A stretch of 64,000 bases of DNA. It comes from Fusarium oxysporum f. sp. lycopersici 4287 (taxonomy: Eukaryota > Ascomycota > Sordariomycetes > Hypocreales > Nectriaceae). Shown here one piece after another: positions 32,499 to 62,316 of this stretch. Under the pieces are notes generated by a model, which had not been told where the DNA came from, searched no databases, and saw only the letters and a program-made list of their open reading frames with translations. Both the position numbers and the translations under genes were made by a program. Positions within the stretch are counted from its first letter, which is position 1. The number at the start of each line of letters is the position of its first letter. The stretch covers positions 5,338,853-5,402,852 of the forward strand of contig NC_030987.1 of NCBI RefSeq assembly GCF_000149955.1, read 5' to 3'.

Positions 32499-35199
32499 TT
32501 AGAATTTTCTAGGACTGGTAGGATGAGCATCCGAGCTATGGCTCTCGAGCGTCCTACAGCAATCTTTCCTGAATGAGGCTGCNNNNNNNNNNNNNNNNNN
32601 NNNNNNNNNNNNNNNNNNNNNNNNNNNNNNNNNNNNNNNNNNNNNNNNNNNNNNNNNNNNNNNNNNNNNNNNNNNNNNNNNNNNNNNNNNNNNNNNNNNN
32701 NNNNNNNNNNNNNNNNNNNNNNNNNNNNNNNNNNNNNNNNNNNNNNNNNNNNNNNNNNNNNNNNNNNNNNNNNNNNNNNNNNNNNNNNNNNNNNNNNNNN
32801 NNNNNNNNNNNNNNNNNNNNNNNNNNNNNNNNNNACCTACACAGTTCCGCATGAGGGCTAGAGCGTCTCCAGTCCGACCACTGACTTTCCAGGTAATGGC
32901 TAGATTATGCATACTCGTTAGTGTATCAGGATGCTCCTCTCCCAGCGTCCTCTTTCTCGTCTCTAGTACTTCTACCTCTAGCTCTTCTGCCTCCTTCTGT
33001 CGCCCCTGGCGCCAGTATATTGATGCTAGGCTAGCCATGCTCGTCAGCGTATCGGGATGCTCTTCTCCCAGCATTCTCTTCCTCATCCTTATTACTCCTA
33101 TTAAGAGCTCTTCTGCCTCCTTATATCGCCCCTGGTGCCAATATGTCCATGCCAGATTAGCCATACTCGTCAGCGTATCGGAATGTTCCTCTCCTAGCAT
33201 TTTAGTCCTTGTTTTCACTGCCTTCTTGCTTAAACTTTCTGCAATCCTATACTTGCCGCTAGTCGACATATACTCTGCGCAATTTGTCAGCAAATGGGCC
33301 CAGTCTAGCAACCCTTCAGCTGGTGGTTCCTCCCTAAACGTCGGCTCAATGTGAGGAAGTAAGACCTGACAGGTAGGCCAGGTCTCGAACGTGCCATCTG
33401 GAAAGTGTGTGGACATAGAGTGCAGAAACAGCTGCCTCCATCGTCCTTCGTTACCCATCGTAGATATCCAAACTCGTGTGCAGAATTATACCAGAGCATG
33501 CATCTCATATGTATCCCCTGTTGCTGTTACAGACACAAGCGAGTAGCCGCGAAGTATATCAAGATCATCTTCAAAATCGGCACTCACGGTATCTCTGTTA
33601 GCGTGGTCCGTCAGGTCGGTGACATAGTCATGAAGCATAAATTCAGGGATGCCCTGTGGATTGAAGAAGCTTATAAAAGAAAGCAGTTTCGCTGCAGATG
33701 GTCTCTCACGGCGTATCTGCTCAAATGTGACCTGCCATGTTACCACGACTGAATTAGAGACTGTTTCATCTCGTCGAAGATCTCCTGCATCTCTGTTGAG
33801 GAGGTTGCCCTTTTTCTTGTTGCTCTCCTGAAAGGTATCCAGATATGTCTTTACTGATACGCAGGGAGCGCGGCGGTTGATGTAGGCTGCTGCTTGAGTG
33901 ATGGCCAGCGGAATATAATTTAGAGCCCAAAGAACATCAGTAGCAGCATCCCTGTCGAAGTCACCATTAAGCTTGTTCTGGAAAAGCTGAAGGCCTTGGG
34001 CGTCATCCATGGTTGGGACACTGTAGATAGCTTTATGGCTTCCTGTTAACCTTTCAGCAGCGTGTATGCTACGCGATGTAATGAGAATAGTTCTATTGCG
34101 GCGCTTCGGTAGATATGCCGCCAGTGGCTGCTAATCGGTCCTTGTAATAGTGTTTTCGTTTGCAAATCCGGTTACTGCCTTATCTCTGCTGTTATAGATG
34201 GGATAAAAGAGGTTGACGTTATCGGCATTATCTAAGATCATCAGCCAAGAGCCAGCTTCCTCTGTCTGCAGCCAGTCACGAATGAGCCTGAGTACGTCGA
34301 TATCAGGATCATTTCGCCTTAGCAACTGTAGCCTCTCTGCAATGGCCTGGTATGCCTCCTCAAATCTCGGCTTCGAACTTGCGTGCACCTAGTAGACGCT
34401 GGTCTGGGGTGACTCGCCGTGGATGTGATAGGCAAACTGGATAGCAGCCTGTGATTTGCTTTAATCTGTTAGCAAAGGCAATCTATGAAACTGGATTATG
34501 TTTGCCATAGGCCATACCCAAATCCACCCATGCCTATAAGCGCTATGCGACTGGCGGAGCCTGTGTATTGACTCTGAAGCTATGTAGTAATATCTGGTTG
34601 ATCGACGAAGTCGGGGTCTTGGTCGAATGGGACGTTGAAGCAGGGTATGCGGGCGATTGGTCTATCTCTGCAGGATTGGAGCGAGACACCGTCGAACTTT
34701 TGTTGGATGTTAAATAAGATTGTACTGCGATGGCGTCAGTTGGTTCTGTCGATGTTCTGGGCGGTATGCTGATGCATGTTTGGTCGATTTGCAGACTTAA
34801 CATAATGGTCTGCTTGTAGTGTTCTAAGTTGGCAATGATTCTGCTAACCTCTTTGCTATCGAATGGCTACTTAAGAGCACGGAGTCCGAGTCGATGCATC
34901 GTCTTACGGGCTTTACCTGGATCCAGCCTGTTCTGCATTTGGACTAACTCTGACTTACAGCCATCAAGAGAGTCGATCAATTCTCGTGATATCGTAAGCG
35001 CTTGATTATTTGGACTGTATAAAACACGATGGACTCCTCGGAGGCATGTATCTAGGTCATTCAAACGGCTCTGGAGGTGTGCGATGTCTGCCCTGGCGTT
35101 TCCGACTGCGGTCGAGTATTGGAAGCAGAGCGTCGCGACTTTAGCGGATAAATCAATGATGGCGACGACACTTGCCGTGAGTCTAACCGCCTCGGCCAT
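32499..35199 (-). pseudogene. Fungal NLR-like (STAND) gene: N-terminal effector-like domain, NB-ARC, TPR repeats; broken
   Basis: The minus-strand Met at 35199 starts MAEAVRLTASVVAIIDLSAK, then an N-terminal domain of about 110 residues as found before NACHT/NB-ARC in fungal STAND proteins. After a disordered linker comes FNVPFDQDPDFVDQPDI and the P-loop IGMGGFG|KSQAAIQFAYHIHG, split by an intron 34517-34459. Then come SWLMILDNAD (Walker B-like), RNRTILITSRS and NYIPLAITQAAAYI, the NB-ARC order. TPR repeats follow with LGEEHPDTLTSM recurring about every 42 residues (33240-32840), kinesin-light-chain type. Premature TAGs stand at 34869-34867, 34582-34580, 34391-34389 and 34133-34131; at least three replace an expected Trp. 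Such proteins act in non-self recognition and programmed cell death. This copy is disabled by RIP-like changes. Confidence 0.85.
32583..32834. other. Assembly gap (252 N) inside the NLR relic
   Basis: 252 N, a size-estimated gap. It falls in or just after the TPR array of the minus-strand NLR-like gene, where near-identical repeats could have blocked assembly. Confidence 0.98.
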
Positions 35200-47209: not shown

Positions 47210-47831
47210 TTTTTAATTGACTTCTATTTAATGCGTTAGCTTCCTTTTAATTGAAATCATTACGAAAATATCAGTGTTTCTGAGTCTTCTCTGTAAGATC
47301 TTGTTGCTGCTTTCGCGGCTGGTGATGAACCCCGCAGTAAGCATAATGCAACCGGTCCAACTTCGTTCCGGTTTCTCTGAAGAGAATTTCCTGTCAGAAG
47401 AAGGATTTCATTGCGTCCAGGTTGACAGGAAAGCTGGTAATGGTGATAAATATCGCGTGCGACGTAGCGGAAGAGTCTCCGGGCTCATAACTGTCGCACT
47501 GGATGTGCTTAAAATGGATTGAAGGTCGGGTCATTCATAATGAGCAGCAGTAGTGAGTTGATTTGTTTTATCTTCTGTGTGGGGTATTCCATCCCCCAGG
47601 TTTTACTTTAAATCATCCAGCTTGATTACTAAGGGCTGTTATTGCTGAGGATCATTGAGACCATGCCCGGCCTGCGACACGACACGTGCACGCGCGCCCA
47701 CGCTCAACGCTTAATTACGATCTCCCCCTCCACCTCGAACCCTCCTCGAAGAACTCTCGCCCACAATCGAGCACTCGATATTCGAGTACATGTGCTCTTG
47801 ATCGCTCACACACGAGTGCCGCGACGGCATC
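47210..47831. promoter_or_regulatory. Upstream region of the TOR gene; contains a patch of prokaryote-like sequence
   Basis: 47640-47831 is GC-rich and probably the TOR promoter/5' untranslated region; it holds ACACGTGC (about 47682), an E-box-like core. 47250-47520 carries an open frame reading MNPAVSIMQPVQLRSGFSEE and VDRKAGNGDKYRVRRSGRVS, then LITVALDVLKMD and stop. Its composition and codon use look unlike both the fungal genes and the RIP DNA around it. I do not recognise it. Confidence 0.3.
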
Positions 47832-49104
47832 ATGGCGCAGGCACAGCATGTCGCCTTGGAGCGACTGGAGCAAATCTCCCGCGGTCTTCGATCAAGGTCG
47901 GTTTCACCATGTGACGATTGGTAGGGCAAGGGGCCTAATATTTCCACAGAACAAGCGACGATTTGCGAAAACGATCCGCCGTACAGCTTCGCGAGCTTGT
48001 AGCTGTTTGTCATCGAGACCTTAGCCCTGAACAATTTCAGGTTTTCTACAACTCAGTCAACAACAAGATTACACAGCTCATTACACATGGGAGCGACTCG
48101 TCCGAGCGACTCGGAGGCATCTACGCCCTTGATGCGCTTATTGATTTCGAAGGCGTCGACGTCGGTGTCAAATACACGCGTTTCACACAGAATCTTAAGA
48201 CGATCCTTCGAGGCAAGGACATCAACCCTATGCAACCAGCTGCGATCGCGCTTGGAAAACTATGTCGACCTGGTGGATCAATGATCTCGGAAGTGGTGGA
48301 CTCGGAGGTCAACACAGCTCTCGAATGGCTACAGAATGAACGCGTGGAGGAGCGACGGTACAGCGCAGTCCTCGTCCTGCGCGAATTGGCCCGAAGCGCC
48401 CCGACACTGATGTATCAATACATCCCGACAATCTTCGACTGGATCTGGATAGGACTTCGAGACACTCGGCAGCTTATTCGGGCAACGTCGGCGGATACAG
48501 TTAGCGCCTGCTTCCGAATCCTTCGCGAACGAGGCCAGGAGATGAAGCAACTCTGGATGAGTAAGATTTACAACGAGTCGAAAGCAGGTCTCAAGGTCAA
48601 CACGGTCGAATCGATTCACGGTTCGTTGCTGGTTCTCAAGGAACTGCTCGAGCAGGGAGCTATGTACATGCAGGAACATTATCAAGAAGCATGTGAAATT
48701 GCCTTTAAGCACAAAGATCACAGAGATCCCACCATTCGAAAGACTGTGGTTCTTCTGATCCCAGATCTTGCCAGCTACTCACCAGCTGACTTTGCGCATA
48801 CTTGGCTACACAAATTCATGGTATATCTATCAGGCATGCTGAAGAAAGACAAGGAGCGAAATGATGCCTTCCTTGCAATTGGTAACATTGCCAATTCGGT
48901 CAAGAGCGCCATTGCTCCGTACCTCGATGGTGTCTTGATCTATGTGCGAGAAGGTCTCAGCGTTCAGTCTCGCAAGAGAGGTTCAGTCAACCCGGTATTT
49001 GACTGTATCAGTCGTCTTGCTGTAGCTGTCGGCCAGACGCTGAGCAAATACATGGAGGCACTTCTGGATCCCATCTTTGCGTGCGACCTCACCCCCAAGC
49101 TTAC
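47832..49104 (+). pseudogene. tor: TOR kinase, 5' part (N-terminal HEAT repeats); gene interrupted downstream
   Basis: Exon 1 (47832-47896) starts MAQAQHVALERLEQISRGLR. The intron 47897-47949 has GTCGGT and CACAG ends; exon 2 continues from 47950 to the N gap. The protein reads TSDDLRKRSAVQLRELVAVC, YALDALIDFEGVDVG, AAIALGKLCRPGGSM, VEERRYSAVLVLRELARSAP and so on to YMEALLDPIFACDLTPKL, the N-terminal HEAT array of fungal TOR. No stop or RIP change is visible in about 400 codons. TOR is the catalytic subunit of TORC1/TORC2, controlling growth with nutrients. The coding sequence resumes only at about 56080, after an N gap, AT-rich DNA and a Helitron, so this locus as assembled cannot give a contiguous TOR mRNA. 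Confidence 0.9.
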
Positions 49105-49673
49105 NNNNNNNNNNNNNNNNNNNNNNNNNNNNNNNNNNNNNNNNNNNNNNNNNNNNNNNNNNNNNNNNNNNNNNNNNNNNNNNNNNNNNNNNNNNNNNNN
49201 NNNNNNNNNNNNNNNNNNNNNNNNNNNNNNNNNNNNNNNNNNNNNNNNNNNNNNNNNNNNNNNNNNNNNNNNNNNNNNNNNNNNNNNNNNNNNNNNNNNN
49301 NNNNNNNNNNNNNNNNNNNNNNNNNNNNNNNNNNNNNNNNNNNNNNNNNNNNNNNNNNNNNNNNNNNNNNNNNNNNNNNNNNNNNNNNNNNNNNNNNNNN
49401 NNNNNNNNNNNNNNNNNNNNNNNNNNNNNNNNNNNNNNNNNNNNNNNNNNNNNNNNNNNNNNNNNNNNNNNNNNNNNNNNNNNNNNNNNNNNNNNNNNNN
49501 NNNNNNNNNNNNNNNNNNNNNNNNNNNNNNNNNNNNNNNNNNNNNNNNNNNNNNNNNNNNNNNNNNNNNNNNNNNNNNNNNNNNNNNNNNNNNNNNNNNN
49601 NNNNNNNNNNNNNNNNNNNNNNNNNNNNNNNNNNNNNNNNNNNNNNNNNNNNNNNNNNNNNNNNNNNNNNNNN
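49105..49673. other. Assembly gap (569 N) inside the TOR gene
   Basis: 569 N. From the known length of TOR HEAT arrays, roughly 200-250 residues are missing between the two TOR parts. The gap is about the size needed to hold most of that, but the AT-rich flank at 49674 must then begin after it. Confidence 0.98.
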
Positions 49674-49955
49674 AAAGTATTATATCTCTTAATAGTAGAT
49701 TTAATATATATTAGGCTTAATTAATATAAAGAAGTTTTATTAATAGCTAGTAAGCTAGAATTTATAAAAGTATAAATAAATATAATTTATATATTAAAGG
49801 TAATAACTATATAATTATAGTTATAATTATAATTTTTATAGTAAGATTAAAATTAAGGTTATAATCCTATATAGGTAATTATAATTAAGAGTATAATTAT
49901 ATTAAAGGTCTTTAGTAATAGGTTAAAGAATATAAGGTATATATAATATAACTGC
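49674..49955. other. AT-rich segment between gap and Helitron
   Basis: About 280 bp of extremely AT-rich sequence with stops in all frames, like the RIP-mutated repeats elsewhere. It is not TOR coding sequence and not like the GC-balanced Helitron. Either a fragment of another transposon inserted beside the Helitron or a misjoined contig end. Confidence 0.6.
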
Positions 49956-49965
49956 AGGGTTTATT

Positions 49966-49976
49966 CAGCCGAAGGC
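49966..49976 (+). repeat. Helitron 5' inverted repeat
   Basis: CAGCCGAAGGC, the exact reverse complement of 56021-56031. With the next bases (TG) it also forms a small self-hairpin CAGCC-GAA-GGCTG. Confidence 0.75.
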
Positions 49977-51047
49977 TGACTCTACATTAATTCATAAGTT
50001 TTCCCGAGTAATGAGGGTTTGGTGCAGACAGGGATAAATAAGTTTCTCGGAATCTGATTGGTCCAGATTTTGTATGGCCAGCCGCGAAAGAACGCGCAAC
50101 TGGCTGATGGCACCAAAAGAGTGGGGCCAATCGGTGCTGGCCCCTGAAAGGCTCACGCGGAGTGCCGGCAGCTTGCGTCCATTTGGAATTGTTTGTTTAC
50201 TCAGTACTGTGCCAGTACCACGCGTTCAATTCATCTCCCCAATTCGACAGGTCTCGATATGGCCTCGTTGATTGAGTAATGGATATCGGTCTCAACCCCG
50301 AAGAGCTCTCTACTGATTTACTCTTCGTTGTTTGTGCTCGTTGTGGGGAGGAGAGACCGGAGAGTGCCTTCAGAGCAAAGAGGCAGTCTGCTGGGCAAAC
50401 TAAGCAATGCATAGACTGCCGTAACCAGCGCGTTTCTCATGTAAGTTCTGCCTTCCTCGTCTATAAGTCTCTTAACCCTCATCAAATGAAGCATTCTAGA
50501 TCCAAAGTCGTGCTCCAGACGCTGCGGAACATTGCACTTCGTCCATCCTCACCTGGCAGACCTGCCACGAAGAGAACCGAAGGAGATGCTGGCCTATCGC
50601 CTCCCAACGAGAGATCCGGAACCCAGCCTACATCGCCAGAGAAGCTACGGCAACTTCATACAGCTAGGAGTTTATTCGGAGAGTCAATTAGCCAGCCGCA
50701 CGTAGTGCTAGGGACGCCAATTCCACCAACCCAACAAAGCTCGCGGCTCTTCCGGGCTCTAGCTCCGTCACCGCCTGTGCAGCCAACGACCCATCCACTC
50801 GTCTCACATTCTGATCCATCTACTCTTCGAAGCAGCACACCTGGTGTGGATTACCCTTACTTGGCCACCAGGTTCCACAAGGGGGGGAAGGACTCGCAAG
50901 ATGATTCCTTGAAGGCTGGGGCGAGGGCCAAGCTGGCTGTTATCCAGCGCGACCATCGTTCACGACGCCGTGCAGGGGAGACTGTGTCACTGACTCCCAC
51001 AATATCTCAACTTGGCTTCTTGGAAGATTTTGAGGGTCCTGGAGAAG

Positions 51048-51100
51048 GTATCCTTGTTCTGTGGCCCCAGTAGTTTGTTCAGGCTAACCACGGAACGTAG
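51048..51100 (+). other. Intron in the Helitron Rep/helicase gene
   Basis: 53 bp, donor GTATCC, branch-like GGCTAAC 13 nt before the acceptor GTAG. Removal joins ...GPGE to DGSQDQLRPSGF in frame. It contains the stops that separate the two reading frames. Confidence 0.8.
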
Positions 51101-54100
51101 ATGGGAGTCAAGATCAACTACGACCGAGTGGGTTTCTAGATGGGGATGGGATAATCAAGGAAGGGGATGACAGGGGACAGTTCTCTGAATCTGATATTGA
51201 CGCCGATGACTATTTCAACTTGCTGCTTTCACCTGATCGACCACGGAGGTACCTCAAACAATTAGGGGTAGAGTCTGATTCCGATCTAGGGGACGAAGAC
51301 GAGAACGACGATAATGATTGCGTGGATGGAAGCCCTCTTCGCCATCGCTTGCGGCAGCCTTCCGCACAGCTAAGGCGTGGTCGCCGTGGTCCTGCCCCTG
51401 GTACAGGAGGGCGGCCAAGAAAATCTCGAAGGCAAACTCGATCGTCGATGCCGCCACGGCGTATTCGGAGTCCAGTGATAATTCCACCTGAAGAATCGGC
51501 GGTCTTTCATGCGCAAGATCCGGTGTGGAATGGCGACCTTGAGGCTTGCGCCTTGACTGGTCGCGATAAGGCAATCCTCCGCGAGTTCTGGACAAAGCTG
51601 GACAATGACCAAATGCAGTTTTGCGGTCGATGCCGGGAGTGTTGGTTCCAGATGAAGATCGATTGCGATGGCATTTGTGCGCGTTGTTATCGAAAAGATG
51701 AGAAACGCCACCCCGACGAGCCGTACTTCTTCTCTGCGGATAATCAGCTCGACTTTGGCCCTGTACCGGCCCGGTTGCCCCAGCTTACGCCTACCGAAGA
51801 GTCTTTGATTGCTCGTGTTCACGTCCACGTGAACATTATGCTTGTGCGAGGGCAGCAGTACAAGTATCGGGGGCACGTAGTTCACTTTCTCCGTGAGGTT
51901 GGCTTAGTGTACAACCAGCTCCCGCTTCTGCCGCAGGAGTTGAACATTGTATTACTACGTCCTGCCAATACGTCGTCCCACGCAATTCTTAGTCGGCAAT
52001 TCACCCGCCAGTTCCGTGTCCGCCGCCAGCCGGTTGTCATATGGCTAGACTACCTCCGGCGCCATCATCCTGGGTATCGATGCGTCGTCATCGACGAAGA
52101 GAGGCTAAATCAATTGCCCCAAGATGGCAATGTCCTGGATGCCATCCCCCAGAGTCAGGTGGAGGCTGCGGATGTTGGACCCGAGGAAGATCAGGAGGCA
52201 GAGCCTGACCTGGAGGACGAGGCTGCAGTGCCAGACATGTTGGCAAAGGACACGGAGCTCGATGCTCTGCGGTCTATTCTCGCCGGAGAGTCGGAAGCTG
52301 ATTCAGAGCTTTCCACAAGCTTCCAGGCGCAGGCGCAACACGAGCTGCAGCTCCCGAATATACGACACACACCCATTAATGAGTTCAATCGCTCTCATGC
52401 CCTACTCTCCTTGGCGTTTCCCTGCCTCTTTCCTGACGGTAGAGCCGACTTTGTTGAACCTCGATTGCGCTCCATTGATTACAAGGATTACGTCGAGCAC
52501 GCGATGCGCTGGCACGACGGGCGTTTTGCACGCCACCCGACCTTCCGCTTCGTCGCCTTCAACACGCTAATGCGGTCACAAGCACGTTCGCGGTCCAGAT
52601 TCTTCGTGAAGCAACATGATGGGAGACAGCAGCCGCTGACGCGAGAGCAACTTATTCAGGCGCTGGAACACAGCGAGGACCCCGAGGCGCAGGCGCTGAT
52701 CAACTCGATCACAAGGCATGCGGTGTCTATTCGCGGTACGCGTCCATTCTGGAACAAAAAGAGGCAGGACCTCGAGGCCTATGCCTATAACCTTGGTTGT
52801 CCTGGTGCATTCATCACGTTTAGCCCGGCAGATTTACACTGGCGGAGTCTCTACCAGCACATGCCCCAGTATGACGACTGGCTAGCCGCCACCGAGCCGG
52901 AGAGGATGGCTCTATCGCGCCGCCTATTGCGGCAGAACCCTCACATTGCTGCTTTCCACTTCTACCGCCGATACACCCTCTTTCGGGATATCGTGCTAAG
53001 TAAGAAGTTCAGCATCACAGATTACTGGGATCGGTACGAATGGCAAGGCCGTGGTAGCCCACACAACCACGGCCTGTACTGGATGGATAATTGTCCAGGG
53101 GCCGACATGGAGGACGAAGCGGCTCGTGATGTATTTGCACGCACATGGGGATTCCACGTCACTGCCATTAACCCTGAGCCGAGTAGGACTATGCCTCAGG
53201 GTGAGGGTAATCCCCTGAGCGTGGATCCCCTGAGCGTGGATCCCCTGAGCATAGAGATGACATTCCTGCGGCTCTCACAAATCGTCAACCGCTGCCAGCG
53301 CCACAAGTGCAATACCACGTACTGCTTGCGCGTGAGGAAGAGAACCGGTGATCTGGCGAGGGACATGGAAGGTGCCGCTGCGGATATCGAGGCGGCAAAC
53401 GTTGCCAATCCAGAGAGGGAGTGTCGTTTTGACTTCCCTCGTGCCTTGCGGGAGCTGGCCGCAGTGATCAGGAAGGAAGGCAGGTCGTACTATGTCTTTG
53501 AGGCGGCCCGGAATGACAGCCTCATGAATAACTTCAATCCTGCGATTATCCTAGGCTGGCTAGCCAATATCGACATATCTCCTTGCACCAGCTTACAGGC
53601 GGTTATTACGTACGCTGCGAAGTATTGCAGTAAATCTGAGAAGAAGACCGAGTCTTTCGCCAGGCTTGCAGACCAGGTCTTGCCTCACACATCGCACGTT
53701 CAGCCCCTGTTGTCCTTCTCCTCTCGCCTGATGAACAAGCTGATTGCCGAGAGAGATTACTCGGCGCAGGAGATTTCCCATCTGCTGCTTAACATTCCGC
53801 TGCAAGAAGGCACCCGTATGGTTGTCACCGTGGACTGCCGTCCGTTGGAGCGACAGGCACGTTCGTATCGTGTGGACGGAGATGTCAACGAGGCCATCGG
53901 CAGCTACAGGAAATATCTAGAGAGAAAGGACCAGCATGAGGATATAACCTATCTCGAATACCTGCAATCGTACAATCTCAACACGTGGAGGAGACTCGCT
54001 GCTCACGCGAAGAAGAGAGTCCTGTCTTACTTCCCTCGATACAAGTCTATGGAGGCCTCTTCCCAGTTTAACGACTTCTGCCGTGTTAAATTGATGATGG

Positions 54101-56020
54101 TTCATCCACATCGCTCTCCAGAAGAGTTGCTCGTTGTGGGCGGGCAGCGGTTCGATTCCTTCACGGCTGCGTACATGCACTGCAGACAGCACCATGATAC
54201 CCATGCGGACGATCATTATGGGGAACCAGATACAGATGAATTGACGGCAGAGGAGGATGAATTTGAGCTTGAGATCCATGAGGAGCCCATCGCGGAGGAG
54301 GACTGGCATGAACTCGCCCGCATGCTACCTGACCGCCCACTGGAGGAAGAGGACATCGACATCCTCGGCCGCCGAGACATTGACATCAATTACGATTGGA
54401 CCCCTCGTGTTGGGCGGTATGCCGATGATGGCATTCTCAACAGCGACTACTGGAAGCAACGCAAAGCGGAAAACACCCTTGACCTTGATGTGGATGATCA
54501 GCCCTTGGAGGCTCGCGATTCCCTAAATCCAGAGCAGCGCATAGTATACGATACGGTGATGGGCCACTTCCTGACCCAGGATCCCTCTCAGTTGCTACTC
54601 CATGTGGATGGCGGAGGCGGCACTGGCAAGTCATACCTCATTAACCTGCTCTCCGCGCACCTCCAATCCGCGACAGGGGGGAGGGGGACACCTGTTTGGC
54701 GTGCTGCGCCAACGGGCGTCGCAGGAAACCAGATATCGGGCACTACCTTGCACTCCCTGTTACACCTCCCAATCAATAAGGACTTCAAGCCTCTATCTCC
54801 CGTTGATAAGACCCAGCTCCAGAAGAAGCTGAAGGATATCAAGTACCTCATCATCGATGAGAAGAGCATGCTAGGACTGCGTCAGCTATCGTGGATCGAT
54901 GACCGTCTCCGCGAGGCGTTCCCGAACAGGAATGAGGAGTTCTTTGGCGGCCTGAACATCCTCTTGGTTGGTGACTTCTTCCAGCTTCCCCCTGTGCTAC
55001 AGAAGCCGCTTTGTTACGACAAAGAGGTGCAGGGAGTAGAGATCAAGGGCAGGAACGCATATAGGCGCTTCGATAAATCAGTATTCTTGAAGGTTGTTCA
55101 GAGGCAGCGCGGCGACGACCAGGAGGCGTTTCGCACAGCTCTCGGGGAACTGCGGCTGCTCCAACTATCTATGGAGTCTTGGAAGCTCCTGTCCACCCGC
55201 GTGCAGGCAAAACTAGACGATCGAGAGGTCGCGAGGTTTTCCAGCGCCCTGCGAGTATACGCTACCAAAGATAGGGTGAACGAGTATAACCACTATCACC
55301 TCGACCGCCTCGGCCGGCCAGTCGTCCAGGTCAAAGCTAAGAACGTCGGCCCTGGTGCGGCTGCTGCCCCTGATGACAAGGCGGGCAACCTTGCGAAGCA
55401 GATCCCTATATGCATTGGCGCTCGTCTGATGCTGACGTCTAACCTTTGGCAGCCCGTTGGCCTCTGCAACGGCGCTCGCGGTACGGTTTACGACATCGGC
55501 TGGGCACCCGGGGCTGACCCCATCCAAGATCCTCCTTGTGTTATCATGATGGAGTTTGACAAGTACAACGGACCGGTGTTCCTGACCACCCCCCGATGGC
55601 AAAAAGATTGTCCCAATTCTCCCAGTTGAGAGAGACTTTCTCATCGGAGCCACTCTCTGCGCTCGCACGCAGTTTCCCCTGATCGTATGCTACGCTATTA
55701 CCGTGCACAAGTCACAAAGCATCACAGAAGATATGATCGTGACGGATCTCTCCTGCCGGGACTTTCAGACCGGTTTAAGCTACGTGGCTGTCTCTCGTGT
55801 AAAAACGCTTGAGGGTTTGATGTTAGATGCGCCATTTGATCGTAATCACCTGGTCTACGGGTCTCCCCCGGATGGCATGAAGATGAAGATGAGGGATCAG
55901 GAGCTTAGGAAACGACAGGTTCTTACACGGAGTCCTTACATGATATATAATACCAAGAATGGCCATGGCACTGGATCAGTACGTAGTAGTAGTAATAGCT
56001 TCCCGGCCCGCGGACACACG

Positions 56021-56031
56021 GCCTTCGGCTG
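56021..56031 (-). repeat. Helitron 3' subterminal inverted repeat
   Basis: GCCTTCGGCTG, the exact reverse complement of the 5' repeat. It overlaps the last codons of the helicase reading frame (stop at 56032). Confidence 0.75.
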
Positions 56032-56036
56032 AGGCT

Positions 56037-56075
56037 ACCCCATGCGCCCCATCGCCGCTCCAATGTGCATGGGGT
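56037..56075 (+). other. Helitron 3'-terminal hairpin
   Basis: Arms ACCCCATGC and GCATGGGGT pair perfectly over 9 bp with a 21-nt loop. A hairpin just before the 3' end is the replication terminator of rolling-circle transposons. Confidence 0.75.
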
Positions 56076-56078
56076 GGC

Positions 56079-59000
56079 GTAGTATTTTACAGAATGCGCA
56101 ATCACTTATCAAGCCATACGTTGAGCCCATGATCTCAGTCCTTCTCCCGAAGGCGAAGGACAACAACCCTTCGGTTGCCGCCACGATTCTCAAGGCCATT
56201 GGCGAGCTTGCTACCGTGGGTGGCGAGGATATGATGCCTTACAAGGACAAATTGATGCCAGTCGTTCTTGATGCGTTACAGGACCAAAGCTCCAACGTAA
56301 AAAGAGAGGCTGCTCTGCATGCTTTAGGACAACTCGCAAGTAATTCAGGATACGTTATCCAACCATACATCGAATATCCTCAACTGCTCGAAATTTTACA
56401 GAGTATCATCAGAACCGAAGGACAACGCGTGCCCTTGCGACAGGAGACCATCAAGCTGATAGGTATCCTGGGTGCACTCGACCCTTACAAACACCAGGTA
56501 AATCTTTCGAAATGGCGCAAATTGCTCCAGCTATTAACACCAACTCAGGCCGAAGAACGAACTCCCGATTCCCGACGAGGCGAGGCCAACCAATTGACCG
56601 ACATTTCTCTCATGATGACCGGACTGACACCCTCTAACAAAGAGTACTTCCCGACTGTTGTGATTAATGCTCTTCTCCAGATCTTGAAGGGCTTTTCATT
56701 GGTTCAGCACCACGCGGCTGTGATTGAAGCTATTATGAACATCTTCCGCACCCTGGGCTTGGAGTGTGTTTCGTTCCTTGATAGAATCATACCGGCATTC
56801 CTCCAGGTGATACGATCGGCCACTTCCACGAGACTCGAGTCTTACTTCAACCAACTGGCCACTCTCGTCAGCATCGTGCGGCAACATATAAGAAATTATC
56901 TTCCATTAATTGTCGAGATTTTGCAGGAGTACTGGCACACCTCGCCATCACTACAGACCACCATCTTGTCGCTTGTAGAGGCCATTTCGAGGTCGCTTGA
57001 GGGTGAATTCAAAATTTACCTCGCTGGTTTGCTACCCTTGATGCTTGGTGTCCTCGACAAGGATACTTCTGCCAAGCGAACACCGTCGGAGAGGGTGATG
57101 CACGCTTTTTTGGTGTTTGGTGCCAGTGCCGAGGAGTACATGCATCTCATCATCCCCGTCATTGTCAGGACGTTCGAGAAGCATGGCCAACCTACATTCG
57201 TCAGGAAGCAGGCTATCGATACAATCGGTAAGATTTCTCGCCAGGTGAATCTTAATGACTTCGCTGCGAAAATCATTCACCCTCTTACACGTGCTTTGGA
57301 CATGGGCGAACCTCTACTCCGTACTGCTGCTCTAGATTCGCTCTGTGCGCTCATCCAAAAGCTGGGCAAAGACTATCTACACTTTATGGGGGCTGTGAAC
57401 AAGGTCATCAATCAGCACCAGATTCAGCACTCCAACTACGAGCTGCTTGTGAGCAAGCTTCAGAAGGGGGAGGTTCTGCCACAAGATTTGAGCTCTGGTG
57501 CTGGCTTTGCCGATGGCGCAGACGAGCCTCCTTTTGCGGATCAAGGCACGAAGAAGTTGGAGATGAATGCTATCCATTTGAAGGCTGCCTGGGATACCAA
57601 AGGCAAATCTACAAAGGAGGATTGGCAAGAGTGGCTACGACGGTTCAGTATAACACTGCTTACCGAATCACCGAACCACGCACTTCGAGCTTGCGCCAGC
57701 CTCGCCAGTGTGTATTTACCTCTCGCTCGTGAGCTCTTCAACTCAGCGTTCGTGTCTTGCTGGAGCGAGCTTTATGAACAATTCCAGGACGAGCTCATCC
57801 AGAACATTGAGAGCGCTATAAAATCCGAGAGCGTCCCGCCCGATCTGCTTGGTCTCCTACTTAACCTCGCCGAGTTTATGGAGCATAATGACAAGGCTTT
57901 GCCGATCGATATTCGAGTTCTCGGTAAGGAGGCAGCTTGCTGTCACGCGTATGCAAAGGCCTTGCACTACAAGGAACTCGAGTTCCTGCAAGACCAGAGC
58001 AGCGGTGCAGTCGAAGCCCTGATCGTTATCAACAATCAGCTACAACAGTCCGATGCTGCCATTGGTATTCTCCGCAAAGCTCAGTTATATAAGGAAGGCA
58101 TCCAGCTGCGAGAAACCTGGTTTGAGAAGCTGGAGCGTTGGGAAGAGGCACTTGCGTTTTATAATAAGCGTGAGGAGGAGGTGCCTAAGGATCAAGCTAT
58201 ACCCGTTGATATTGTCATGGGTAAGATGCGATGTTTGCATGCTTTGGGAGAGTGGGAGGCTTTGGCTTCTTTGACCGGTAGTACTTGGGCCAACTCTACG
58301 CCTGAGGTTCAGAGAATGATTGCACCGCTTGCGACAGCCGCTGCGTGGGGTCTGAACAAGTGGGATTCCATGGACAACTATCTCTCATCGCTCAAGAGAT
58401 ACTCACCTAATCGATCATTCTTTGGTGCGATTTTGGCACTCCATCGCAACCAGTTCCGCGAGGCGATTGCCTGTGTTCAGCAAGCTCGCGAAGGCCTAGA
58501 TACCGAGTTAAGTGCATTGGTTAGTGAGTCATACAACCGGGCATACCAGGTCGTCGTTCGGGTGCAAATGCTTGCTGAGCTTGAAGAGCTCATCGTCTAC
58601 AAGCAATGTGACGAGAAGAAGCAGGCCATCATGAGACGCACCTGGGAGACACGACTGAAAGGTTGTCAGAGGAACGTCGAGGTTTGGCAGCGAATGCTCA
58701 GGTTACGTGCCATTGTGATCGCGCCGACCGAGAATATGCATATGTGGATCAAGTTTGCAAACCTTTGCCGCAAGTCTGGACGAATGGGACTGGCTGAGAA
58801 GTCACTAAAGCAACTTATTGGAACTGACGCTCCTTTGGTATCCACGATTCCCTACTGGAGTGAACAGCGACAGCCAGGACCTGGTCCAAGGAACGCACCA
58901 GCTGCACAGGTCATCTACGCTGTGCTCAAGTACCAGTGGGAACTCGGGCAGCAGTTGCCTGCTAACAAGAAGGCCAACATTCCCGAGAAGACACTGTATT

Positions 59001-61522
59001 GTCTGCGCAAGTTCACTAATGATGCTGCTCATCGTTTGGAGGTTGCTAAGACTCACCTGAATGCACAAGCTGGTAGTGAGGTCAACATCACTGGCGACTA
59101 TGGGTTCCAGAACCAGATGGACCCTACTCTCATGAGCCCACAGACTCAGCGAGCACTGTATGATCAGACGGTCCTGTTGGCCAAATGCTACTTGCGACAG
59201 GGAGAATGGCTAATTGCGCTCGACAAGGATGATTGGCAATATACTCAGGTTCAGGATATTCTCACATCGTATTCTCAGGCGACTAAGTATAATCCTCGCT
59301 GGTATAAAGCCTGGCACGCTTGGGCGTTGGCCAACTTTGAGATCGTTCAGACTCTCACAACTGGAAACGAAGGACACTTGCCAAGGACGGATCACAACAT
59401 GGTGATTGACCACGTTGTTCCGGCTGTCAAGGGCTTCTTCAAATCTATCGCACTCTCACAGGGAAGTTCGCTGCAGGATACTCTCCGACTGCTCACACTC
59501 TGGTTTACGCATGGTGGAAGCGCAGATGTCAACACAGCTGTTACAGAAGGCTTTGCTAATGTCAGCGTCGACACCTGGCTCGAAGTGATTCCTCAACTGA
59601 TCGCACGAATCAACCAGCCTAACAAGCGAGTTCAGCAGTCAGTGCATAACCTTCTTGCCGATGTTGGACGAGCTCATCCGCAGGCTTTGGTTTATCCCCT
59701 CACTGTCGCAATGAAATCTTGGCAGAACACACGCCGATCCCGCTCTGCAGCTCAAATTATGGATAGTATGCGGCAGCATAGCGCAAACCTGGTCGCCCAA
59801 GCTGACACGGTCAGTCATGAACTGATTCGTGTAGCTGTCTTGTGGCATGAACTCTGGCATGAGGGACTGGAAGAGGCTTCGCGTTTGTACTTTGGTGATC
59901 ACAATATTGAGGGTATGTTTGCAACACTCGAGCCTTTGCATGAGCTTCTTGAGCGCGGTCCTGAGACTCTTCGTGAGATCTCTTTCGCACAAGCGTTCGG
60001 CCGAGGCCTCAAGGAGGCGCAAGATTGGTGTCGACAGTACGAGACAAGTCAAGACATCAACGATCTGAACCAGGCGTGGGATCTGTATTATCAGGTATTC
60101 CGCAGAATAAGTAGGCAGCTACCTCAGGTTACCACCCTGGAGTTGATATACTGCTCGCCTAAGCTCCTCAACGCCAAGAACTTGAACCTGGCAGTTCCCG
60201 GAACATACAAGAGCGGACAGCCTATCATAAGGATAATGTCCTTCGATACGACGTCTAGTGTTATCAACTCTAAGCAGCGCCCACGAAAGCTCAACATCAA
60301 CGGTAGTGACGGAAAGTTGTACGCTTTTTTGCTAAAGGGCCATGAGGATATTCGCCAGGACGAACGAGTTATGCAGCTGTTCGGCCTATGCAATACCCTT
60401 CTGGCTTACGACTCTGAATGCTTCAAGCGCCATCTTAACATTCAGCGCTACCCTGCCATCCCTCTGTCGCAGAATAGCGGTCTGCTCGGGTGGTTTCCCA
60501 ACAGCGACACTCTTCACGTTCTTATTAGGGAGTATCGTGAGAGCCGCAAGATTCTGCTTAATATTGAACATCGCATCATGCTTCAGATGGCGCCTGACTA
60601 CGATAACCTGACCTTGATGCAGAAAGTCGAGGTGTTTGGTTATGCACTGGATAACACCACCGGACAAGACTTGTACCGTGTTCTCTGGCTCAAGTCAAAG
60701 TCTTCTGAGGCTTGGCTTGAAAGACGAACGAACTACACTCGCTCTCTGGGTGTCATGTCCATGGTGGGATATATTCTGGGTCTAGGTGATCGTCATCCTT
60801 CCAACTTGAAGCTTGATCGTGTCACTGGAAAGATCCTTCATGTCGATTTCGGTGATTGTTTCGAGGTGGCGATGAAGAGAGAAAAGTACCCCGAGAGGGT
60901 TCCTTTCCGTCTTACTCGCATGTTGACCTACGCTATGGGGGTCAGCAATATTGAGGGTAGCTTCAGAATTACATGCGAGAACGTAATGAGAGTTCTACGC
61001 GACAACAAAGAAAGCGTCATGGCTGTTCTCGAAGCAGTAAGTTTTCTCTCTATCTCCAAGCTGAAGATTCCATTCTAACAGTCACAGTTCATTCATGATC
61101 CCCTCCTTACATGGCGCTTAACGAATGCCGCATCCCCAACAGGCCCCAACTTCCGCTCCGACAGAGACGCAGCAATGCCTGTCCCCGGCGGTGTCCGCGC
61201 CCGCCGTGCCTCCATTCTCGACAGCGACGTAGCACCCTCCGAACTCCTCAATGCCCCCGAAGCATCAATCCAGATATGCGCACGCGCTCGCACAAACAGT
61301 TCAGCAGGCGAAGCCATGACAAACGGCGGCGCACCCGAAGTAGAAAGTCAGAACGCGCGAGCTGTGTAGGCGCTGGATCGTGTGCAGCAGAAGCTCACGG
61401 GTCGTGATTTTAAGAATAACGAGGAGCTGGATGTCACCGCGCAGGTTAACAAGTTGATCATGGAGGCTACTAAGCTGGAGAATCTGTGTCAGCACTATAT
61501 AGGATGGTGCAGCTTCTGGTAG
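56079..61522 (+). pseudogene. tor: TOR kinase, 3' part (HEAT, FAT, FRB, kinase, FATC) with one premature TAG
   Basis: Reading resumes as ILQNAQSLIKPYVEPM at 56079 and stays open to 61036. Then come an intron 61037-61087 (GTAAGT...CACAG) and a last exon to the TAG at 61520-61522, ending [11 protein letters not shown], the diagnostic FATC terminus. HEAT repeats run to about 57500 and FAT to about 59800. The FRB domain contains EEASRLYFGD (rapamycin-contact Ser at 59879) and QAWDLYYQVF. The kinase has LLKGHEDIRQDERVM, GLGDRHPSNLKLD (Asp 60788, Asn 60803) and HVDFGDCFE (Asp 60845). An in-frame TAG at 61367-61369 replaces a Gln codon in the '[13 protein letters not shown]' segment just before FATC, which is essential for TOR activity. 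Otherwise the part is undamaged. The ATG at 56042 lies in the Helitron hairpin and is not a genuine start. Confidence 0.9.
61037..61087 (+). other. Last TOR intron
   Basis: 51 bp, GTAAGT to CACAG with a CTAAC branch element (TTCTAACAG) about 10 nt upstream of the acceptor. Joins ...AVLEA to FIHDPLLTWRLTN at a codon boundary. Confidence 0.85.
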
Positions 61523-62199
61523 ATTCGCATAAGAAAGATGTTGCTAGCCGGGGCCTTTTTATGTATGTATTTGCTTCAAGTTTGCGGGAGTTGGGGGTGG
61601 GAAATGCGATATCAGGAAGTTTTTCGTTGTATGTTTGTCCATGTAATGTACAAGTACAAAGCCTAGATGAATCTTATTGTATTCTATCTCAATCAACATT
61701 GTTCCAATTCAACATTCTTTCCTCCGCTGTTTATAGCTCATCTCGATGTCTAGGCTTCTCGGGCTGACTTCCAACATCCCATCTCGAAAAGTCACAGGCA
61801 GCAGGCGTGCCAATTTCCATCCTTTAAACACACTTCTCACTCTCACTAACCCTACTCTTCTATTCCTAATTGTCGCATACCCCTGTCTACTTCTCAGGTG
61901 CTTAACTATCTCCGGTTTATTCCCATTTACTCCATAGCGACTAATTTGTCCTATTTCGATTGATAATCGGCGCGTTATATATGCGAGTAAACGTATACTT
62001 TAGCTTTTATAGCTTATCTACCCTAGGTATTATTTACAGATAATTCTACTATACTAATTACCCCTAGTATTAGGTCCTAATACATGAAATCATAGCCCCT
62101 GCGTTTATGCTTTATTAGGTTATTATTTAAGCTAGAGTAACCCTTAATATGGTAAGACTAATACTTCTAACTTTGCCTTAGGGGGACAAATAGGATAAT
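61523..62199. other. TOR 3' region, then AT-rich transition
   Basis: 61523-61950 is a plausible TOR 3' untranslated and intergenic region of normal composition. From about 61980 the sequence becomes AT-rich and RIP-like. No further gene. Confidence 0.4.
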
Positions 62200-62316
62200 A
62201 AGATAATAATAATATATTATACCCTATTGCTTTTTATTCTTATAAGATACACAGAGTAGAACTTAACTATCCTATCTATAACAAAGAATTCCTAGCTATT
62301 ATTAACTATTTAAAGA

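Follow-up and report, generated by a model that had tools for sequence, protein, structure and literature searches.

Fusarium oxysporum f. sp. lycopersici (Fol) 4287 has two genes for the target of rapamycin (TOR) kinase, FOXG_18412 on chromosome 8 and FOXG_15946, or FoTOR2, on chromosome 2 (PMC8435236). FoTOR2 is one of the accessory, lineage-specific (LS) TOR paralogues, which according to the text of PMC6001611 occur as nine paralogues, six of them full length, distributed over 7 of 12 strains, are on average 95.9% identical to the core TOR and all carry a Met-to-Lys change (given as lysine in the text, while the figure legend prints M2345L). Citing Lopez-Berges et al. 2010, the same text states that a transposon truncates FOXG_15946. 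Here we describe this locus in a window of 64,000 nucleotides on chromosome 2 (G000:C2:5338853-5402852), taken from the 61.24-Mb assembly of Fol 4287 in 71 contigs. The window holds a TOR gene in two halves with a copy of the Helitron FoHeli1 between them.

Expression of FOXG_15946 was absent from the RNA-seq data of PMC6001611 itself. In the text of PMC8435236, deletion of FoTOR2 left hyphal growth and the rapamycin response the same as in the wild type, the two-hybrid assay gave no contact of FoTOR2 with KOG1 or FKBP12, and deletion of FoTOR1 is said to be possibly lethal. The marks of FoHeli1 have been published as TCAG...ATTTT termini, a 12-bp inverted repeat, a 3' hairpin, Rep and helicase domains, insertion at TNAT/A and copies more than 99% identical (PMC5148889). 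The word "Helitron" is absent from the main texts of PMC6001611 and PMC8435236, and a literature search that covered neither subscription papers nor supplements did not find the transposon in FoTOR2 named as FoHeli1. A review that mentions Helitron, "target of rapamycin" and Fusarium draws no link between them in the three passages concerned. The broken TOR copy is mostly already known. New or sharper here are a premature TAG that cuts off the FATC domain, the identity of an adjoining AT-rich stretch to contig C61, the Helitron-derived start of the annotated protein P0001, and the divergence under constraint together with the branching position of the copy.

The two halves of FoTOR2 and the Helitron between them

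A search of the assembly with 432 residues of the kinase region returned the locus itself (100%), C8:497186-498481 (97%) and three distant matches (38, 29 and 28%). The top protein match of the 3' half is P0001 (1806 aa, 99%), named as the TOR of Fol 4287 ("FKBP12-rapamycin complex-associated protein"), and P0006, another match at 95%, is likewise labelled as a Fol 4287 TOR. Together with the published listing of the chromosome 2 and chromosome 8 genes, these names identify the split gene as the accessory paralogue FOXG_15946/FoTOR2, and P0001 is taken to be FOXG_15946.

The second, core TOR occupies C8:496133-504053 and is about 87% identical in DNA to the copy on C2. Homology begins at window position 47679; from there to 49104 the window aligns with C8 504053-502623 (87.5%), and 56090-61853 aligns with C8 501895-496133 (86.8%), so that the unmatched remainder is exactly C8:501896-502622 (727 bp). 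Protein identity is 95.6% for the 3' exon and 93.8% for the 5' piece. Exons 1 and 2, compared over 406 codons, differ from C8 at 25 amino acids and hold no stop. The 3' half resumes at the codon CAG, on the same strand, and its big exon (FAT 408 bits, PI3_PI4_kinase 245, mTOR_dom 218 and FRB 150 in a profile search) is followed by an intron and the last exon. We looked for the missing 727 bp elsewhere in the assembly and rejected that location: the three matches are C8 itself and the two known edges on C2. The assembled distance between the halves, 569+291+6124 = 6984 bp, compares with 727+6124 = 6851 bp expected for one insertion, which argues that the halves are adjacent. A scan for bacterial promoters and terminators at the TOR start returned nothing, the bacterial models being not apt for a fungus.

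Beyond the TOR block, the sole match between 40 kb of C8 and 84 kb of C2 is one stretch of 87 bp (77%). Only TOR being common to the two contigs here, the block is a single-gene island, and an allodiploid or duplicated-segment genome was rejected on the same ground. The repeat to the left (query bases 1 to about 181) matches at least 38 other places at 90-96% identity, the scoring having covered the best 40 of 150 candidates.

The insert is the known, Helitron2-like FoHeli1. It begins with TCAG and ends with ATTTT, has a 12-bp asymmetric terminal inverted repeat (arms 49965-49976 and 56021-56032, 100%) and a 3' hairpin (arms 56034-56045 and 56067-56078, 92%), and gives Helitron_like_N at 159 bits and PIF1 at 98 bits in the profile search. 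The assembly contains at least 39 matches to it (33 of 178 candidates scored), at least 15 of them full length when the window copy is counted (L020-L034). Among these 15 listed copies, 14 have TNAT on the left, the exception being L030 with a changed start, and 14, the window's included, have the terminus GTAGTATTTT (ending TATTTT) followed by A, L027 being one T short. In the window the 3' end abuts the TOR codons exactly (Helitron/A-CAG), with the expected A on the right; the TTAT on the left belongs to the AT-rich flank and not to TOR, whose own target bases on that side are not visible. Compared with the majority of the 15 copies, the window Helitron has 0 substitutions and 16 indel columns; it differs in a length variant of 15 bases that 5 of the 15 copies have, and in one length change of its own that interrupts the long frame. 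L034 has 39 substitutions and each of the remaining copies 0-9. The lack of substitutions supports a recent insertion.

Two features of the repeat matches may be mentioned on their own account. In the FoHeli1 copy L022 (C14:1164733-1170861) the 5' terminus is doubled; FoHeli1 copies in which several 5' termini occur have been published, this strain included (PMC5148889). The matches on C3 and C6, and on C15 and C71, are paired at near-constant offsets (about 1.77 Mb for C15 and C71), which suggests large duplications of near-identical sequence or redundancy among contigs.

We consider it very probable that the accessory FoTOR2 is now a pseudogene, through a recent FoHeli1 insertion in HEAT coding sequence and a separate nonsense mutation, with the AT-rich DNA as a misjoin from C61. 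An old TOR copy, constrained for most of its history and kept as a TOR-only island between chromosome 2 repeats, would have received a recently active FoHeli1 straight into its HEAT-repeat coding sequence, which would have left the Helitron 3' end against the A-CAG of TOR. The nonsense mutation would separately have removed the FATC domain. The 727 bp between the halves would lie mostly inside the assembly gap, and the 291 bp of AT-rich DNA would have been drawn in from C61 because the 6.1-kb Helitrons are nearly identical. Of this account we infer the single direct insertion, the misjoin and the loss of function; dispensability is taken from publications.

Much of this agrees with the initial annotation, which from the letters of the window had proposed a TOR gene split by a Helitron, with intact start codon and first intron, both parts in the same orientation and a recent insertion; each of these points is borne out, order and strand also agreeing with C8. 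It had further offered, as one of three options, that an intact paralogue exists elsewhere and that this copy is dying. This option is the right one, as the genome search found the second TOR on C8, as already described, although the C8 frame is interrupted in the assembly and "intact" relies on the core TORs of other strains and on publications. Growth would depend on the chromosome 8 TOR, and FoTOR2 is known from publications to be dispensable. Given an accessory paralogue, a second TOR on C8 and a published deletion without effect on hyphal growth (PMC8435236), a broken TOR is no longer paradoxical here, essential though TOR normally is in fungi.

Features of the split TOR locus (window positions; C8, the contig with the second TOR; C61, the contig that matches the AT-rich stretch)
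Feature	Position	Strand	Remarks
High-copy repeat end	47500..47680		About 150 bp upstream of TOR start codon; left limit of C8 homology
TOR exon 1, with ATG at 47832	47832..47896	+	ATG and intron borders common to C8 copy
First TOR intron	47897-47949	+	Kept
TOR exon 2, N-terminal HEAT region	47950..49104	+	Open up to gap
Assembly gap, 569 N	49105..49673		Most likely covers most of the missing 727 bp of TOR
AT-rich, repeat-derived DNA	49674..49964		Probably C61 sequence misjoined
FoHeli1 Helitron, 6124 bp	49965..56088	+	Termini, 12-bp inverted repeat, at least 14 other full-length copies
FoHeli1 Rep-helicase frame (Helitron_like_N, PIF1)	51088..55629	+	Broken near 3' end by private length difference
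First 82 codons of P0001, Helitron helicase tail	55733..55978	+	Model start 55733
TOR 3' part, big exon (rest of HEAT, FAT, FRB, kinase)	56090..61036	+	1649 codons, no stop
Catalytic-loop Met-to-Lys	60809..60811	+	Residue 1574 of piece; M2345 in published numbering
TOR last exon to premature stop	61088..61366	+	C8 comparison
Premature stop TAG (sense codon in C8)	61367..61369	+	C8 comparison
FATC-coding remnant past premature stop	61370..61519	+	FATC 60.9 bits, E 9e-17
Right-hand repeats	61846..62316		Mark right limit of TOR homology (61853)

Elsewhere in the window, inspection by eye picked out a pair of neighbouring minus-strand frames at 32499-34130 that have tetratricopeptide-like repeats and enclose an assembly gap. 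They have an NB-ARC-like look, and we take them to be perhaps an NLR-like gene.

Premature stop, catalytic loop and gene model

Apart from the split, the initial annotation had regarded both TOR parts as undamaged, which does not hold for the 3' part: in the consensus, a TAG stops the frame before the FATC domain. The natural stop stands at 61520, FATC is coded only behind the TAG (it was also placed at C2:5400279-5400371), and the annotated protein P0001 ends where the premature TAG stands. That FATC was not detected in FoTOR2 in PMC8435236 is accounted for by this stop. Repeat-induced point mutation (RIP) was considered as the cause of the damage and rejected; TpA/ApT is 0.69 in the 3' part on C2 and 0.58 on C8, values that differ little, and the stop arose by a transversion, which is not of the RIP type. 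In the catalytic loop, the position that is Lys here is Met in all 15 other rows of the protein alignment, the C8 TOR among them.

The start of P0001 is also affected by the insertion. In this gene model the helicase tail of the Helitron is joined to TOR at AATGCG, and the end of the predicted intron uses the CAG of TOR. Should P0001 be FOXG_15946, what was published as "N-terminal truncation" would correspond to a model that starts in the transposon, with the true 5' half located 8 kb upstream of it. The annotated protein starting with Helitron sequence, domain drawings made from that model mislead. Three ATGs in the 3' terminus of FoHeli1 (56042, 56063 and 56069) are in frame with TOR. An insertion of FoHeli1 of such phase and orientation could, judging by the reading frame, start an N-truncated host protein.

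The AT-rich flank and rival explanations

The initial annotation had described a gap, AT-rich DNA and a Helitron of about 6.1 kb between the TOR parts and had named a chimeric assembly as one explanation. All three components are present, as 569 N, 291 bp and 6124 bp, but the AT-rich part is probably foreign to the locus, and it is this detail only that is probably chimeric. Window positions 49674-49964 are 100% identical to C61:69352-69642 over the 291 bp, and among 48 matches listed (40 of 133 candidates scored) the best of the others to cover almost all of it reaches 81% (C58). C61 runs on into the Helitron and stops within FoHeli1 at 70881. This overlap with the contig after the gap (L040, C61:69352-70881) extends over 1.5 kb at 99.6%, with all 6 differences within the Helitron. 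The border TTAT/TCAG is an ordinary FoHeli1 insertion site, base for base as in C61. One insertion border at two places, together with a contig that ends inside a near-identical 6-kb repeat, suggests that the AT-rich 291 bp are the flank of another Helitron copy, that of C61, probably misjoined through the near-identical Helitrons. Of the partial FoHeli1 copies in 12 genomes, 82% are close to a contig border or take up a contig entirely (PMC5148889). The AT-rich repeat family itself has several members less than 5 kb from a contig start (C3, C9, C11, C12, C13, C20, C39, C65 and C67), as subtelomeric repeats would be.

Several observations weigh against a pseudogene made by one insertion and a misjoin. 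The left junction between Helitron and TOR is not visible in the assembly, and the spacing is undecided on the AT-rich DNA, 727 bp being off by 158 from 569 and by 133 from 569+291. Relatives of the AT-rich repeat occur upstream of two other FoHeli1 copies, at C7:4118389-4118508 (87%) and C10:2705825-2706109 (83%), within about 0.7 kb and at other distances, so it is not in itself unusual to find FoHeli1 beside DNA of this kind. Should reads from repeats have been distributed among copies, the per-copy identity of the Helitrons would carry less weight as evidence. The premature stop is read from one consensus, and P0001 probably comes from the same assembly. The TOR frame on C8 is itself interrupted near its 5' end, at C8:502837-502846 (L007). 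Finally, PMC6001611 gives, citing Lopez-Berges et al. 2010, a very low expression of the truncated FOXG_15946 in rich medium, and reports greater rapamycin tolerance in both tested strains carrying an extra TOR, 4287 included. As for C8, the core TORs P0003, P0005 and P0012 of other F. oxysporum strains read through the site, and by this comparison the interruption is probably a base-calling fault. The annotated core protein P0006 (1985 aa) begins past the interruption and is without FATC through reading into the last intron.

The AT-rich 291 bp might be real, if FoHeli1 carried a 5' flank from a C61-like site, if an AT-rich repeat inserted next to it or if a segment resembling C61 underwent duplication. 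The contig is continuous over AT-rich DNA, Helitron and TOR (no N from 49674 to 62316), multiple 5' termini of FoHeli1 are published (PMC5148889) and seen in L022, and the relatives at C7 and C10 reach 83-87%. We nevertheless regard a real flank as unlikely: by eye, none of the about 30 flanking bases of 14 other copies, some of them AT-rich, repeats the window flank, the repeat at C7 and C10 stands at other distances, which speaks against a commonly carried flank, and the window border is identical to that of C61. The overlap with C61 would also suit two TOR halves that are not adjacent, the 3' half having been linked to C61 by recombination between Helitrons and the 5' half placed next to it during scaffolding; FoHeli1 has many copies that scarcely differ, and ectopic recombination between copies is discussed in PMC5148889. 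Such an arrangement is rather improbable, the order and orientation being right, all of TOR but 727 bp being covered and the spacing fitting one insertion. The gap also has an uneven size (569) against exactly 100 in 2 of 5 N runs of the window, which would suggest read-pair links.

A working chimera, in which the Helitron supplies the start of an N-truncated TOR through its helicase-tail exon or the start codons in its 3' terminus, could draw on the annotated fusion of 82 Helitron residues to TOR, on the ATGs at 56042, 56063 and 56069 reading into TOR and on the very low rich-medium expression quoted in PMC6001611. The fusion is a predicted gene model, however; FATC is not in frame and the catalytic loop has Lys for Met, the gene is unexpressed in the RNA-seq of PMC6001611, and the deletion in PMC8435236 has no growth effect, with no contact to KOG1 or FKBP12. 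We therefore hold a working chimera to be highly improbable. Least probable of all is a pure assembly artefact, with FoTOR2 whole and the Helitron elsewhere. FoHeli1 is known to disturb assemblies (PMC5148889) and the AT-rich flank is probably misjoined, yet a chance join would hardly fall at the exact last base of the Helitron with the expected A, and a transposon insertion in FOXG_15946 is reported in print, at second hand (PMC6001611).

Divergence, origin and relation to described systems

Comparison of C2 with C8 gave, for the 3' part, a synonymous divergence (dS) of 0.63, a nonsynonymous divergence (dN) of 0.024 and a ratio of 0.038 (1649 codons, 73 amino-acid differences), and for the 5' part 0.545, 0.032 and 0.059 (406 codons, 25 differences). 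In the last exon, taken on both sides of the premature stop, dN/dS is 0.066 (144 codons). These pairwise values suggest that the pair diverged mostly under strong purifying selection.

Protein trees were built from 16 rows, 14 of the 120 listed proteins (of 1440 found) and the two genomic copies. The proteins are cluster representatives, so no row bears the name of F. verticillioides or F. graminearum; no other LS TOR is included. The C2 TOR branches outside a clade that unites the core TORs of F. oxysporum with that of F. gaditjirri, a member of the F. nisikadoi complex (100/99 in both pieces). With the 5' piece, C2 joins this clade to the exclusion of F. lateritium (97/94), and with the 3' piece the three are left as an unresolved trichotomy. 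Single sites give a mixed signal: in the 5' piece F. lateritium shares the residue of C2 at 15 of the 25 differences and that of C8 at 7, and in the 3' piece the residue of C2 at 16 of the 73 differences and that of C8 at 47. The branch of C2 measures 0.036 against about 0.015 for the core in the 3' piece and 0.019 against about 0.043 in the 5' piece; these opposite ratios argue against a uniform speed-up of C2. A total of 25 of the 73 differences in the 3' piece are private to C2, at columns otherwise invariant among the rows.

The branching would fit a TOR copy older than the split of F. oxysporum and F. nisikadoi, by horizontal origin or by old duplication with loss. It is conceivable, if on balance doubtful, that the accessory TORs came from outside the F. 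oxysporum/F. nisikadoi lineage, by horizontal transfer or introgression, and were long constrained despite Lys at the ATP pocket. They would then act as a modifier or decoy TOR look-alike and not as a normal kinase, with 4287 losing its copy through Helitron and FATC loss. The position of the C2 copy outside the F. oxysporum and F. gaditjirri clade makes a foreign origin of the accessory TORs a testable idea. There is also a disagreement in print, between the extra TOR as cause of the rapamycin tolerance of 4287 (PMC6001611) and the deletion study (PMC8435236). A split copy, a FATC domain out of frame and a changed catalytic loop agree with the deletion study.

Compared with the described systems, the locus shares with FOXG_15946/FoTOR2 of PMC6001611 and PMC8435236 the place on chromosome 2, the nearness to core TOR, the Met-to-Lys change, the N-truncation by a transposon and the FATC that was not detected. 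It differs from that description in that the transposon is named as FoHeli1, the 5' half persists on the other side of the gap, FATC is not absent but lies behind a nonsense codon, and the gene model begins within the Helitron. The LS TORs of other F. oxysporum strains belong with it to one paralogue clade in the published trees, and those described there as full length (six of nine, PMC6001611) are without such breakage, unlike the 4287 copy. With FoHeli1 of PMC5148889 the insert has in common the termini, the 12-bp inverted repeat, the size of about 6 kb, the A to the right of the target and the near-identical copies. It differs in that it lies within the coding sequence of a conserved gene and has a private length difference in its helicase frame.

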